Shown: positions 10,942 through 33,710 of the stretch, piece after piece | Position numbering within the stretch: position 1 is the first letter of the stretch | How the letters are laid out: every line of letters starts with the position of its first letter | DNA from: Polytrichum commune | Taxonomy: Eukaryota > Streptophyta > Polytrichopsida > Polytrichales > Polytrichaceae | Assembly (NCBI GenBank): GCA_950295325.1 | Contig: OX485803.1 | Location: 1,860,001 to 1,924,000, forward strand | Direction of reading: 5' to 3' | DNA: 64,000 nt | Notes under the pieces: model-generated | Database searches by the model: none | Told to the model about the DNA's origin: nothing | The model's input: the letters and a program-made list of their open reading frames with translations, nothing else | Position numbers and translations under genes: made by a program

Positions 10942-11117
10942 GGATACCAAGTGTTTCACTTCGTGAATGACATTGGATTCGGAGAGGCTTCAACGAACCT
11001 GTTGATCGAAGGACTTTCGATGGACGCTAATTTTGACCTGGCGCTTTCTTGATCAGATTGTGAGCTTCACATGATGAACTAGAAGTTGACAGTATTGGAA
11101 TCTGTCAATTGGGGGTT

Positions 11118-13346
11118 ATGATGGGGAAGTCAATGGTGATGCCGATGGCACCCCCGGAGAAGCCAAAGGCGGGCCTCTTGGAGGCAGTGTTGCCCAGCGT
11201 ATGGTTTCTCAAGCTGAAGTCCATGCGGAAGAAACCCATTCGGGCACTGAAAGATGTACCGGACAGCAGCGAGCCTGTAATAGCAGACTCTGCTCCATTT
11301 CTCCCCAAGAGCATCGAGAATTGCTACAGGAGTCCAGTGATGTCATCAGAGATGTGTGTCTTCACTCCCCTTCAAACTCCACCAACCATAACACTGGGTG
11401 AGCATGCCCTTATTGTCAGTCCTGGTTCGGATAGGGGAGCTTACAGAGGATTTCGTAGCATGTCTTCACCACCGAGGAAATCATCCAGCTTCATGCTTCC
11501 GGGTGTCACTACAATAGCGGTGACTGATCCAGTGGTCTCCAGTGTGACCACTACAACTGCCACGAGCTCTATCTTCTCCAGGTGCACATACAGGTCCACC
11601 ATCTTCTCATCTTTGAGAAACTTGTGCAAGCTCGTGGGTGATGAGCCCATGGTGGTGAAAGGAAGCTCCACGGATTCCTTCCGCAAATCTGCATCCCCAA
11701 CTATGAGGACATGGTTTTTAGCTGGATGTGGGAGCATTCCGCGGACACGGGCACGGCATAGGAGTATGGATCTGGAGAAAGAGTCAGGGTTGATTGAGCT
11801 CGATGCAAATACTGGTCTGGAATGCATAGAGACATCTGCACCGGGGGTAACTCCATCGACATGGCCGAAGAAAAGAGCTGATTCATGGTCGGGGGGTCAT
11901 CCATCCACATGGAGCGTTGACCTCACAAATGATGAAGTTGTGAAGAAACAAGTGGTGGTGAAGAAGAAGAGGGAACCGAAGGCTGGAGTGTTGATGACTA
12001 AAATCTCTGACCATTCCAAGTCACCATCCAAGCCGGCGAAACCCACTCTTGGGCACCTATTCGCCAAAGCTTCGGAAACTGATTCACCCACTAAAATCTT
12101 CCCGGAAAGCGAGGAGCCTTTCGAGGATGATGAGATCATTCATGGTGAGAATAATCTTAAGCAGAATAATGCTCACGCTCCTCCATGGAGGTCACCTTCT
12201 TTTGGTAGTGGTGGTGACAGTCCCTTCAGGGCCCCATCGGATGTTGGATTATCCGAGGGTGGTAAAGGATTGCCTTTATCAGATTCCGAGCCTACACATG
12301 AGGAGCTCGATAAGGGTAACATCTCCGACAGCCAAAGTGTACTGAGGGCGAAGGTTCTGGCAGCCGAACGCCTCCGGGAAGGCTCAAAGTCATGGAGGGA
12401 GCAGCGAATCATGATTGAGAAGAACAAGGAAGAAGAAGCAACAAGGCTACTAGCATCTCTGGATGAAGCTCTGGAGCAACACAACTTACAAAAGCTACTT
12501 GAGGACGAAGAAGATAGTGACAATGGATGTGATTCCAGGAGCGGTAGCCCTAGGTTTGAAGTCCATAATTATCCTGTGTTTGAGAGTTTCCTTGAATCTT
12601 CTGCCAAGGCATGGGGTATCGACTTCCCCACACTTAGAATTGATGATGGCAAGACATCGGGATCCATCAGTGATAAGAGCAGGGAGCTTCATTGCATCAC
12701 AGTGCATACATCCGTAGAGGATCATGCAAATGAAGAACCCATCAGAGAGCAACAGTCACACGGACGTGCAGAAAGAGGAAGAGATGCATCCCGAGGTGTG
12801 AGACTGAGTGCTGCCCCCAATAAGGTACGAAAATCCAAGCGTTTTGTAGAGAAGGAAGTTCCAAAGAGGAGATCACCATCGAGAAGACCCGCCACCGCCA
12901 AGGAAACTCGCGAAGAGAGAACCCACCATCCACAACGGGAAGAGAGCATGATTGACCCAGACCTACATGACGAGTTTAACAATGCAAGGAAGAAACTGAA
13001 CGATGCTCGAAAGCGAAGCAAGCAGCGGAGGTCGAAGCAAGTTGCCTCGGTGCCTGATGTTTCTCCAACTCCACCTCCACCTCCACCTGTTGCTGAAAAG
13101 AAACCTCAACCACATGCAGGTGTGGTGAAGGAGAGAGTGGCTGTTGTGGTGGAAAGCTCCTATGATCCTTATAACGATTTCCGTGAGTCCATGATTGAGA
13201 TGATTGTAGATCAAGACATTCGGGAGACCGGTGATTTGGAGGAGCTTTTGCAGTGCTACCTTTCTCTTAATGAGGCTGAGTACCATAACGTCATTGTTGA
13301 TGTCTTTACGGATGTGTGGCATGAACTCTTTAAGAGCAACGGTTAA
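11118..13346 (+). CDS. OVATE family protein (transcriptional regulator), 742 aa, intronless
   Basis: The C-terminus (residues 680-742) is a clear OVATE (DUF623) domain: 'DPYNDFRESMIEMIVDQDI', then 'GDLEELLQCYLSLN' and 'VIVDVFTDVWHELF'. Near the N-terminus, 'LPSVWFLKLKSMRKK' (25-39) resembles the conserved N-terminal segment of OFPs. Between them lie a Glu/Arg-rich predicted coiled coil (about 409-470), a basic stretch 'ARKKLNDARKRSKQRRSKQ' (about 624-645) that could be a nuclear signal, and a proline run (about 650-660). OFPs are plant-specific regulators that bind TALE homeodomain proteins and control organ shape and secondary wall growth; most are 150-450 residues, so this one is long. The frame is open upstream to 11064, but the first ATG is at 11118 (a second follows at once). 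A single exon fits the family. Assignment is firm; the partner and target are inferred. Confidence 0.93.
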   Translation: MMGKSMVMPMAPPEKPKAGLLEAVLPSVWFLKLKSMRKKPIRALKDVPDSSEPVIADSAPFLPKSIENCYRSPVMSSEMCVFTPLQTPPTITLGEHALIVSPGSDRGAYRGFRSMSSPPRKSSSFMLPGVTTIAVTDPVVSSVTTTTATSSIFSRCTYRSTIFSSLRNLCKLVGDEPMVVKGSSTDSFRKSASPTMRTWFLAGCGSIPRTRARHRSMDLEKESGLIELDANTGLECIETSAPGVTPSTWPKKRADSWSGGHPSTWSVDLTNDEVVKKQVVVKKKREPKAGVLMTKISDHSKSPSKPAKPTLGHLFAKASETDSPTKIFPESEEPFEDDEIIHGENNLKQNNAHAPPWRSPSFGSGGDSPFRAPSDVGLSEGGKGLPLSDSEPTHEELDKGNISDSQSVLRAKVLAAERLREGSKSWREQRIMIEKNKEEEATRLLASLDEALEQHNLQKLLEDEEDSDNGCDSRSGSPRFEVHNYPVFESFLESSAKAWGIDFPTLRIDDGKTSGSISDKSRELHCITVHTSVEDHANEEPIREQQSHGRAERGRDASRGVRLSAAPNKVRKSKRFVEKEVPKRRSPSRRPATAKETREERTHHPQREESMIDPDLHDEFNNARKKLNDARKRSKQRRSKQVASVPDVSPTPPPPPPVAEKKPQPHAGVVKERVAVVVESSYDPYNDFRESMIEMIVDQDIRETGDLEELLQCYLSLNEAEYHNVIVDVFTDVWHELFKSNG

Positions 13347-15455: not shown

Positions 15456-17680
15456 TTACTGTTTGGTTAACTCTTGCTCCTTGGCAGCTTCCACTGCTCT
15501 CATCATCGCTGCTGTGGAATGCTTAGCAAACATCTTCTGCTGAAACCGCACGATTGGGTATCCTGCAACTGATAAGAAGTGTGCTGGCTTAGAGAATGAC
15601 AGAATCTCGTACCACACCGAGTCGTCGTCCCTCCACTCCACCCCAAACCTCTCCTCTCCGGCCTGAGTGCAACAAACAGAGCAAAATGAGGTATTATGCC
15701 TCTCAAAACAACCTTTCAGAGCATTGCATTATTTCTTTCAGTACAACGGACTAGATTCAGATAGACAACTTCAAGACCAGAATGTGGGCCAGCAAGGTGC
15801 CTCTTCTGAAAGCAATACCTTCTCAAAACAACCTCCTAGAGCATTGCATTATTCCCTTCAGTACAATGGACTAGATTTAGATTGACGACTTCAAGACCAG
15901 AATGTCATACCAGCAAGTGGTCTTGCAATGTGCTGCTTTTGAAATAAGAACCTTCTCAAAACAACCTCTCAGAGCATTGCATTTATTTTGTTCTGTAGGA
16001 CGGACTAGATTCAGATTGATAACTTCAAGACTAGAATGTGCTGCCAGCAAGTGGCCATGTAATGTGCCCCTCCTGAAAGCAGTATCTTCTCAAAACAACC
16101 TCTCAAACCATTGCATTATTTCTTTTCAATGCGATGGACTAGGTTCAGATTGACAACTTTAAGACTAGAATGTTGTACCAGCATATGGCCTTGCAATATG
16201 CCCTTTCCGAAAGCACTACATTTTCAAAACAACCTCTCCAACCATTATTTCTTTCAATACAATGGACCAGATTCAGATTGATAACTTCAAGACCATATTG
16301 TCATACAAGCAAGTGGCCTTGCAATGTGCTTCTTCTGAAGTCAGTACCTTCTCAAGACAACCTCTCAGAGCATTGAATCATTTCTTTCAATATAATGGAC
16401 TAGACTCAGATTGACAACTTCAAGACGAGAATATGGTACCAGCAAGTGGCCTTGCAATGTGCCGCTTCCAAAAGCGAAAGCAGCCTGGTTTGGGTCGATT
16501 GTGGAGAGCGCCTTGGAAACCATGCAAGTCGGCGGCTCCTTGGAATCCACATACAAGACCTGAAGTGGGTTCATGATCCAGGTTGCTACTTCATGGGCGC
16601 ATACACAGAACTTTGTGCCTTCCGTAATGGGGGTGCGCGCTTCCACGGATGCCCATGGTAGCTGAAAATGGCTGCACAAACACCTTAGCTTAATAAAATG
16701 TGTGCAAATTCCTGTAACAAATGGCTGCACAATGGTGTAGACGAATAAATGTCTACACCAAAAAACCACAAAATAGGAATCATGACGATGAGCCAATTCA
16801 GAGATCTTGGAGTTACATACTCAATCTAAAATAAAAGAAGCAAATTAACAAGAACAAGAATGACATAGAAAGCAAACAAACATGCAGCAATAGCCAAATG
16901 GTGGCAAGCCATTTGACCACAGGCCCATCCACAATAATCTGCCACCTTCCACAAAATCTCCAACAGTGGATCCTAGTCTTGAGGTTCAGCTATATCTCTG
17001 ACGTACTGGGGAACTCAAGCAAATTGCTGTTTAGCATGTGTACAACTCCACAATTTCAACACAAGGTAATCAAGAGCGAACAAGCTAAGACAATTCACAG
17101 AAGTAGAAAGATCTAAGCTTGTCAGGTTTTTTTTTTTAAAATTATTATTATTATTTTAATGTGAGCACCATATCTGTGCTAAAAATGGTGCAGATAAAAA
17201 AAAATTAGAATAAAAATGGGTAGAATGCCATCTTTTCATAATTCGGACACATGGTCAATTAGGTACTGTAGAATTGAAGCAAAAGAGTACCCCCAGCTTT
17301 GCAACAACTTCTTTCCTTCCACAAACACTTCACGCCCAGACCCCAGCCTCACGCTGGCATGGTTGATTGCATATCCATCCTTCTTGAATTTCTCGGCCTT
17401 TTCGGTTAACAAAGGCGACTCTCGTGTCGCCTCCTTGAATTTAATGTCATAGTTGAAGTCACCCTCTCTGTCAAAAAATGGCACACAGGATCAGCTTCTG
17501 GGAGGAAAAGAATTGTGGCAGGCAATTCGTCTCTGAGCTTGCAAGCAAAACTGAGAAAAACAGTGAAAGAACATCTAGCAGAATTTGAATTTGGTGAGGT
17601 TGCAGAGTATTTTACTTGCAGCGAGCAAGGAAGTGTGCTTGCTCCTTCTCTGATGGCCGGTTCCACGACAGGCAGATCAT
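15456..17680 (-). CDS. UPF0548 / DUF1990 family protein, four exons, 226 aa
   Basis: Exons on the minus strand: 17616-17680 (ATG at 17680), 17291-17467, 16440-16671 and 15456-15662 (TAA at 15456-15458); they sum to 681 bases and stay in phase. The protein starts 'MICLSWNRPSEKEQ', then shows the DUF1990 landmarks in order: 'GDFNYDIKFKEAT', 'NHASVRLGSG', 'LLQSWGHFQLPW', 'GTKFCVCAHEV', 'PLQVLYV', 'FGSGTLQGHLLAGEERF', 'VWYEILSFSKPAHFLS' and 'GYPIVRFQQKMFAKHS'. This follows plant UPF0548 proteins such as Arabidopsis At2g17695. The biochemical function is unknown; related bacterial proteins also carry the domain. There is no signal peptide or membrane segment. The second exon's acceptor was chosen at 16671/16672 because only that site keeps phase and gives the family's W-HF-motif. 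The last intron is unusual (see 15700-16485). Confidence 0.92.
15700..16485 (-). repeat. Tandem repeat in DUF1990 intron 3 built from the end of exon 3
   Basis: Six units of about 119-136 bp start near 15700, 15819, 15952, 16086, 16220 and 16348. On the minus strand each unit carries a copy of the sequence that, in the unit nearest 16440, is the true 3' end of the third coding exon (coding GTLQGHLL) plus its 5' splice site. The copies keep much of GCACATTGCAAGGCCACTTG. At the position of the real donor, three of the five intronic copies still have GT (units at 15819, 16086 and 16220), one has GC (15952) and one is lost (15700). The array therefore began as a duplication across an exon-intron boundary. 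Confidence 0.85.
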
Positions 17681-33164: not shown

Positions 33165-33710
33165 TGATGCCACAAATCAAAGGCGACAATTTTGCAAGTC
33201 GCTTACAACACTGGGAGGAAAGAAAAATGAATTATAGTGACCATTTTTTTTGGGGTCCACTACTAGCCTCACATTTTTATTTCAAAACCCACTTTGACCC
33301 TCAAATGCCATAAACCATCACCAACAATGTTGAAGGCAATTTTTGACATTGGGAGGAAGCTAAAAAATTTACGGCCATTGGTGGCCATATGTTTTTGGGT
33401 CTCCTACTAGGCTCATATTTTATTTAAAATCCACTTTGACCCCCAAAATTCCATAACCACCAACAACAGTGTTGAGGGTCACTTCCAACATTGGAAGGCA
33501 AAACAAATTGTTTTTTAGCCATTGGTGACCAAGTCAATTTGGGTCCCCTCCTAGCCTCATATGTGTATTTAAAACCCACCTTGACCTCACAAAATGTTTG
33601 GCTAAAAATGCCATAAACCACCATTGGCAATGCTAAGGGTTGCTTCCCATGTTGGGAGGGGAAAGAAAAATTACATGGCCATTGGGAGGGGTGCACTTGA
33701 GGAGAATATA
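33165..33710 (+). repeat. Minisatellite, about four units of 138-159 bp
   Basis: Unit markers 'gccataaaccatcaccaaca', 'tccataaccaccaacaacag' and 'gccataaaccaccattggca' start at about 33308, 33450 and 33609, with a weaker first unit near 33170. Each is followed by 'gttgggagg'-like text, then 'ccattggtg', 'gggtc(c/t)c(c/t)ctag', 'cctcat' and 'cccactttgac'. Short open frames across it are not genes. Confidence 0.8.

Follow-up and report, generated by a model that had tools for sequence, protein, structure and literature searches.

The last intron of a DUF1990 gene in Polytrichum commune very probably holds a single-locus minisatellite that arose by tandem duplication of a segment straddling the exon 3/intron 3 boundary, and whose copies have since decayed neutrally, with the exon-proximal donor likely still used. 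Six head-to-tail units fill most of the intron, and the unit next to the exon contains the actual exon end and the actual donor site. The array belongs to an already known kind, the boundary-spanning tandem repeats, to which this locus adds a case. It offers a clear natural example of tandem amplification of a donor site in a gene whose reading frame has stayed intact. Positions below are those of the window, by which we mean the whole stretch of 64,000 nucleotides that was analysed; it lies at positions 1860001-1924000 of its contig, in an assembly of 407.8 Mb in 64 contigs.

The DUF1990 gene

The gene lies on the minus strand and comprises four exons: exon 1 (17616-17680; MICLSWNRPS..., with a presumed start codon), exon 2 (17291-17467), exon 3 (16440-16671; HFQLPWASVEA...FGSGTLQGHLL) and exon 4 (15456-15662; AGEERFGVEW... 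to the stop). Joined, they form an open coding sequence of 681 nt for a protein of 226 residues, in which residues 52-209 match the Pfam profile PF09348 (E 1.8e-38; 132.5 bits against a cut-off of 23), placing the protein in the DUF1990 family. Exon borders are predicted from the open frame, from GT-AG dinucleotides and from homology, through alignment to a bacterial DUF1990 protein. On the same grounds (GT-AG, open frame, bacterial alignment), intron 3 should run from 16439 to 15663, a length of 777 nt in phase 0 that begins GTACCA and ends GCACTCAG; intron 1 measures 148 nt.

Neither a protein search nor a profile search of the assembly found a second DUF1990 gene, so no paralogous intron was available for comparison. 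Four of the five matches in the protein search are the exons of this gene; the fifth, at E 0.50 and containing two stops, we take as chance. The profile search matched this gene alone in the assembly and also one of 14 control genomes, a bacterium. The DUF1990 domain is found in Oep23, an ion channel of the chloroplast outer envelope (At2g17695 in Arabidopsis; PMC4331141), and the word "intron" is absent from the available text of that DUF1990/UPF0548 report. The name Oep23-type, or Oep23-like, would apply to our gene only in the sense of this common domain.

Two long reading frames neighbouring the gene match the Pfam families Ovate and NPH3, both of them land-plant families. A reading frame on the plus strand at 11064-13346 extends for 760 codons from stop to stop, which is long for an Ovate family protein, and has an Ovate domain at its end (PF04844; residues 699-756, E 1e-25). 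No known RNA family was matched in the window at Rfam gathering scores.

Tandem units spanning the exon 3/intron 3 boundary

Tandem Repeats Finder reports an array at 15792-16475 with a period of 134, 5.2 copies, 77% matches and a score of 804. Cut at homologous points, the array spans 15700-16474 and resolves into six units, 113-134 bp long and all read here on the minus strand. An earlier note, made from the letters of the sequence, had described six units in a 777-bp last intron; its number of units and intron length agree with ours, but its unit lengths of 119-136 bp do not. The exon-proximal unit 1 (16341-16474, 134 bp) joins the final 35 nt of exon 3 (16440-16474) to the first 99 nt of intron 3 and contains the real donor, CTG/GTACCA. 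Over the last 24 nt of exon 3, all 24 positions agree with the consensus of units 2-6, and over the last 35 nt 32 positions do so, a match that could not plausibly be due to chance. The self-alignment, which the note had named as a test, bears out its account of the first unit as the true exon end (GTLQGHLL) with its donor, and of the rest as decayed copies that include exon sequence.

Unit 2 (16214-16340, 127 bp) has CTTCAG and GT both at homologous places, which delimit a 28-nt pseudo-exon at 16307-16334 followed by the pseudo-donor CTT/GTATGA at 16306. Unit 3 (16080-16213, 134 bp) carries the pseudo-donor CTG/GTACAA at 16178 and reads CTTTCGG in place of CTTTCAG, and unit 4 (15946-16079, 134 bp) has CTTTCAG, with GC at the donor position, 16044. 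In unit 5 (15813-15945, 133 bp) the pseudo-donor is CTG/GTATGA at 15910 and the exon-like piece is preceded by ATTTCAA. The last unit, unit 6 (15700-15812, 113 bp), has lost 12-13 nt within or next to its exon-derived piece and lacks GT at the donor position, which is occupied by GC or falls in a gap depending on where the deletion is placed. Beyond it lie 37 nt of non-repeated intron (15663-15699) that hold the real acceptor, fall outside the unit alignment and are probably a remnant of the intron as it was before the expansion. Across all 15 pairs, the units are 78.0-85.0% identical, and up to 87.6% if the gap in unit 6 is placed otherwise.

Two other tandem arrays occur in the window, one at 784-1418 (period 237, 2.7 copies, score 1002) and one at 33237-33596 (period 144, 2.5 copies, score 374). 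A 17-nt stretch of unit 4 (16021-16037) shows 88% complementarity to part of intron 2 (16970-16986), probably by chance.

Splice sites and constraint in the copies

We consider it most likely that splicing still proceeds from the exon-proximal donor and that the array is removed as intron, as has been described for the repeats of human factor VII. Five copies of a donor region inside an intron raise the idea that the array works as a modulator of splicing. Copy donors or 28-nt pseudo-exons would then serve as decoys or poison exons and reduce the amount of functional mRNA, possibly under regulation. A GT is retained at the donor position in three of the five copies, with the first intron base at 16306 (unit 2), 16178 (unit 3) and 15910 (unit 5). 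CTTTCAG or CTTCAG precedes the exon-like piece in units 2, 4 and 6, as the earlier note had seen for some copies; the note's count of three donors likewise holds, with positions 6-7 bp away from ours. Both sites stand at homologous places, with CAG and GT 28 nt apart, in unit 2 alone; unit 4 combines CAG with GC, and in unit 5 a GT is paired with a CAG displaced by some bases, so that the pseudo-exon would measure 22 nt.

Inclusion of the pseudo-exon of unit 2 or unit 4 would bring a stop after 191 of 226 residues, and read-through to the donors of units 2, 3 and 5, or retention of the whole intron, would bring one after 182. Use of a copy donor or of either pseudo-exon would thus give a truncated product, probably a non-functional one, which agrees with the note's expectation that decoy donors or pseudo-exons would break the frame; its 28-nt pseudo-exon is complete with both sites in just one of the five copies. 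The modulator reading can also draw on intron 7 of human factor VII, where, with the first donor weakened, downstream cryptic donors are used (PMC6627357).

How strong the copy donors are can be gauged against the U1-complementary 9-nt donor consensus, to which the real donor has 5 matches and those at the homologous positions of units 2, 3, 4 and 5 have 5, 5, 4 and 6. By this measure the pseudo-donor of unit 5 is slightly better than the real donor, which leaves room for some misuse. Among the 3786 GT sites on the window's minus strand, 25% reach 5 matches and 6.8% reach 6; no donor therefore stands out, the real one included. The pseudo-donor of unit 2, moreover, has T as its -1 base. We rejected the idea that the real donor of intron 3 is unusually weak, as the three donors of the gene score 6, 4 and 5 of 9.

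Intron 3 as a whole is not significantly enriched in donor-like sites: 15 of its 53 GT sites have at least 5 of 9 matches, against a shuffle mean of 11.7, and 86 of 500 dinucleotide shuffles have as many. Nor did we find an excess of pseudo-exon-like pairs, counted as CAG...GT 15-60 nt apart with a donor of at least 5 matches; there are six, below the shuffle mean of 8.7, and 394 of 500 shuffles have as many.

Divergence among the five copies also bears on whether their exon-derived part has been retained for a function. In a first alignment, differences in the exon-derived part amounted to 0.232 (35 columns) or 0.216 (24 columns) of compared sites, against 0.170 in the intron part, and 73 of 78 intron blocks of 24 columns were as conserved as the exon-derived core or more so. 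With the gap in unit 6 moved to keep CTTGCTG in register, a more plausible placement, the values become 0.198 (35 columns) and 0.161 (24 columns) against 0.178, with 42 of 78 blocks; without unit 6 they are 0.217 (35 columns) and 0.174 (24-column core) against 0.192. The 24-column core is accordingly slightly less diverged than the intron part in both of these comparisons, and we dropped the notion that the exon-derived part is the more diverged, as that difference is gone once the gap is moved. A fair statement is that exon-derived and intronic parts of the copies appear to decay alike, with no sign of constraint, in a comparison of five copies over 35 columns that has little power against weak constraint and that shifts with the alignment.

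In neither alignment is the exon-derived part clearly better conserved than the intron part, and this, together with the single complete pseudo-exon and the ordinary numbers of donor-like sites and pairs, makes it unlikely that the array is a working splicing modulator; the proposal that it tunes or disrupts splicing finds no support here. A variant would have the copies serve as both reserve and decoy donors, assisting a real donor of modest strength (5 of 9 matches), with a fraction of transcripts taking the donor of unit 5 or the pseudo-exon of unit 2 and the truncated products setting the output of the gene, as a plant counterpart of the factor VII repeats. This we regard as quite improbable. 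Some leak of splicing to the copy sites is possible, and the best reading of the array would be as a relic minisatellite that is probably spliced from its exon-proximal donor.

Origin and age of the array

We propose that a segment of about 134 bp, made of the last ~35 nt of exon 3 and the first ~99 nt of intron 3, was multiplied in tandem by unequal exchange or replication slippage, in events close together in time. Intron 3 would have grown in this way from about 136 to 777 nt, after which the five downstream copies would have decayed neutrally while the exon part of unit 1 was held by coding and splicing constraint. Subtracting units 2-6 (641 bp) from the 777 nt of the intron leaves 136 nt, close to the length of intron 1, and the acceptor and intron tail lie outside the array; a short intron was therefore probably lengthened by multiplication of the segment at its 5' border. 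A duplication across the exon-intron boundary, which is also what the earlier note had suggested, is well supported as the origin, given units that include the exon end in register.

The direction of the process is indicated by a bacterial DUF1990 relative, the one confirmed among 45 pattern stretches in one scan of bacterial and archaeal contigs, which aligns straight across the exon 3/exon 4 junction (GTLPEHAETGEERF with GTLQGHLLAGEERF). The exon sequence therefore predates the array and is the source of the repeats. The breakpoint within the exon can be placed only to within some bases. At the site where the exon has CTTTTGG the copies have CTTTCAG, a difference common to them, which would mean that the first copy was already altered or that the true breakpoint is a few bases farther 5'; just upstream the exon also has CTGCTTTC, which may belong to the junction.

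Tandem duplication can also supply new splice sites, and a duplication across an intron-exon boundary has made a new intron in potato (PMC4974935). That intron 3 itself was created in this manner is very unlikely, however, since its acceptor and 37-nt tail lie outside the array, so that the acceptor did not come from the repeat, and since the unit already holds 99 nt of non-coding sequence after the donor. An ordinary satellite or transposon-derived repeat that was inserted in the intron and resembles the exon end by chance is hardly credible, its tandem structure and satellite-like unit length notwithstanding, given that the unit consensus agrees at all 24 positions with the coding exon end and lines up with the splice site, and given that two DNA searches of the 407.8-Mb assembly, one with 791 bp of the locus and one with the unit consensus (searches that skip very common words and score only the best candidates), found this single locus and no copy elsewhere, as a dispersed satellite would have.

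Boundary duplication followed by decay is also consistent with the relations among the units. Their mean pairwise difference is 0.180, or 0.206 as a Jukes-Cantor distance, and their tree is nearly a star, with internal branches found in 28, 47 and 59% of 200 bootstraps. The 57 variable columns comprise 45 singleton and 12 informative ones, and divergence between units is unrelated to their separation along the array (rho -0.30, p 0.28). The star-like tree and lack of a distance effect fit an expansion within a short time, followed by independent decay without recent homogenisation. At an assumed substitution rate of 5-10 per billion years per site, our guess is that the array is of the order of 10-20 million years old.

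Relation to known boundary-spanning repeats

The closest precedent comes from intron 7 of human factor VII, whose 5' splice site lies in an array of 37-bp repeats. The repeats are several in number and highly homologous; the first holds the real donor, and cryptic donors occur farther downstream in the intron. Repeat number varies there, and the downstream donors are used after a +5 mutation (PMC6627357). In both cases the real donor lies in the first unit, and here GT persists in three of five later copies. The likeness is one of anatomy. Our units differ in being 134 bp long rather than 37, in being 78-85% alike rather than highly homologous, and in lying in a plant-type gene.

An RdRp gene of potato gained a new intron through a tandem duplication across an intron-exon boundary (PMC4974935), and resembles our locus as a plant gene with a duplication of this kind. 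The potato duplication involved the acceptor side and gave rise to an additional intron, whereas in our gene the donor side was multiplied into six units and an intron already present became longer. In human segmental duplications, minisatellite expansion alters gene structures, in some cases at exon-intron boundaries as in our gene (PMC2812944). Those cases are recent paralogs compared with the help of transcripts; ours is one older locus, whose sequence by itself speaks of local duplication and decay and no more. The open-licence literature on boundary-spanning repeats and on intron gain by duplication yielded no earlier report recognisable as this locus. With relatives and RNA, the array could show how fast decoy donors lose function, and how strong the preference for an exon-proximal site is in a plant.

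Further repeats in intron 2

Intron 2 contains repeats of its own beside exon 3. The acceptor of exon 3 with the first exon bases (16666-16679; minus strand TTGTGCAGCCATTT) has an exact 14-nt copy at 16719-16732, 53 nt upstream in the intron. When the 2.4-kb gene region was shuffled 500 times by dinucleotides, an exact 14-mer repeat turned up in 11 of the shuffles, and the copy is suggestive at most of a duplicated acceptor. Adjoining it is a hairpin-like inverted repeat at 16733-16760 (minus strand TGGTGTAGACATTTATTCGTCTACACCA), perhaps the footprint of a small transposon.
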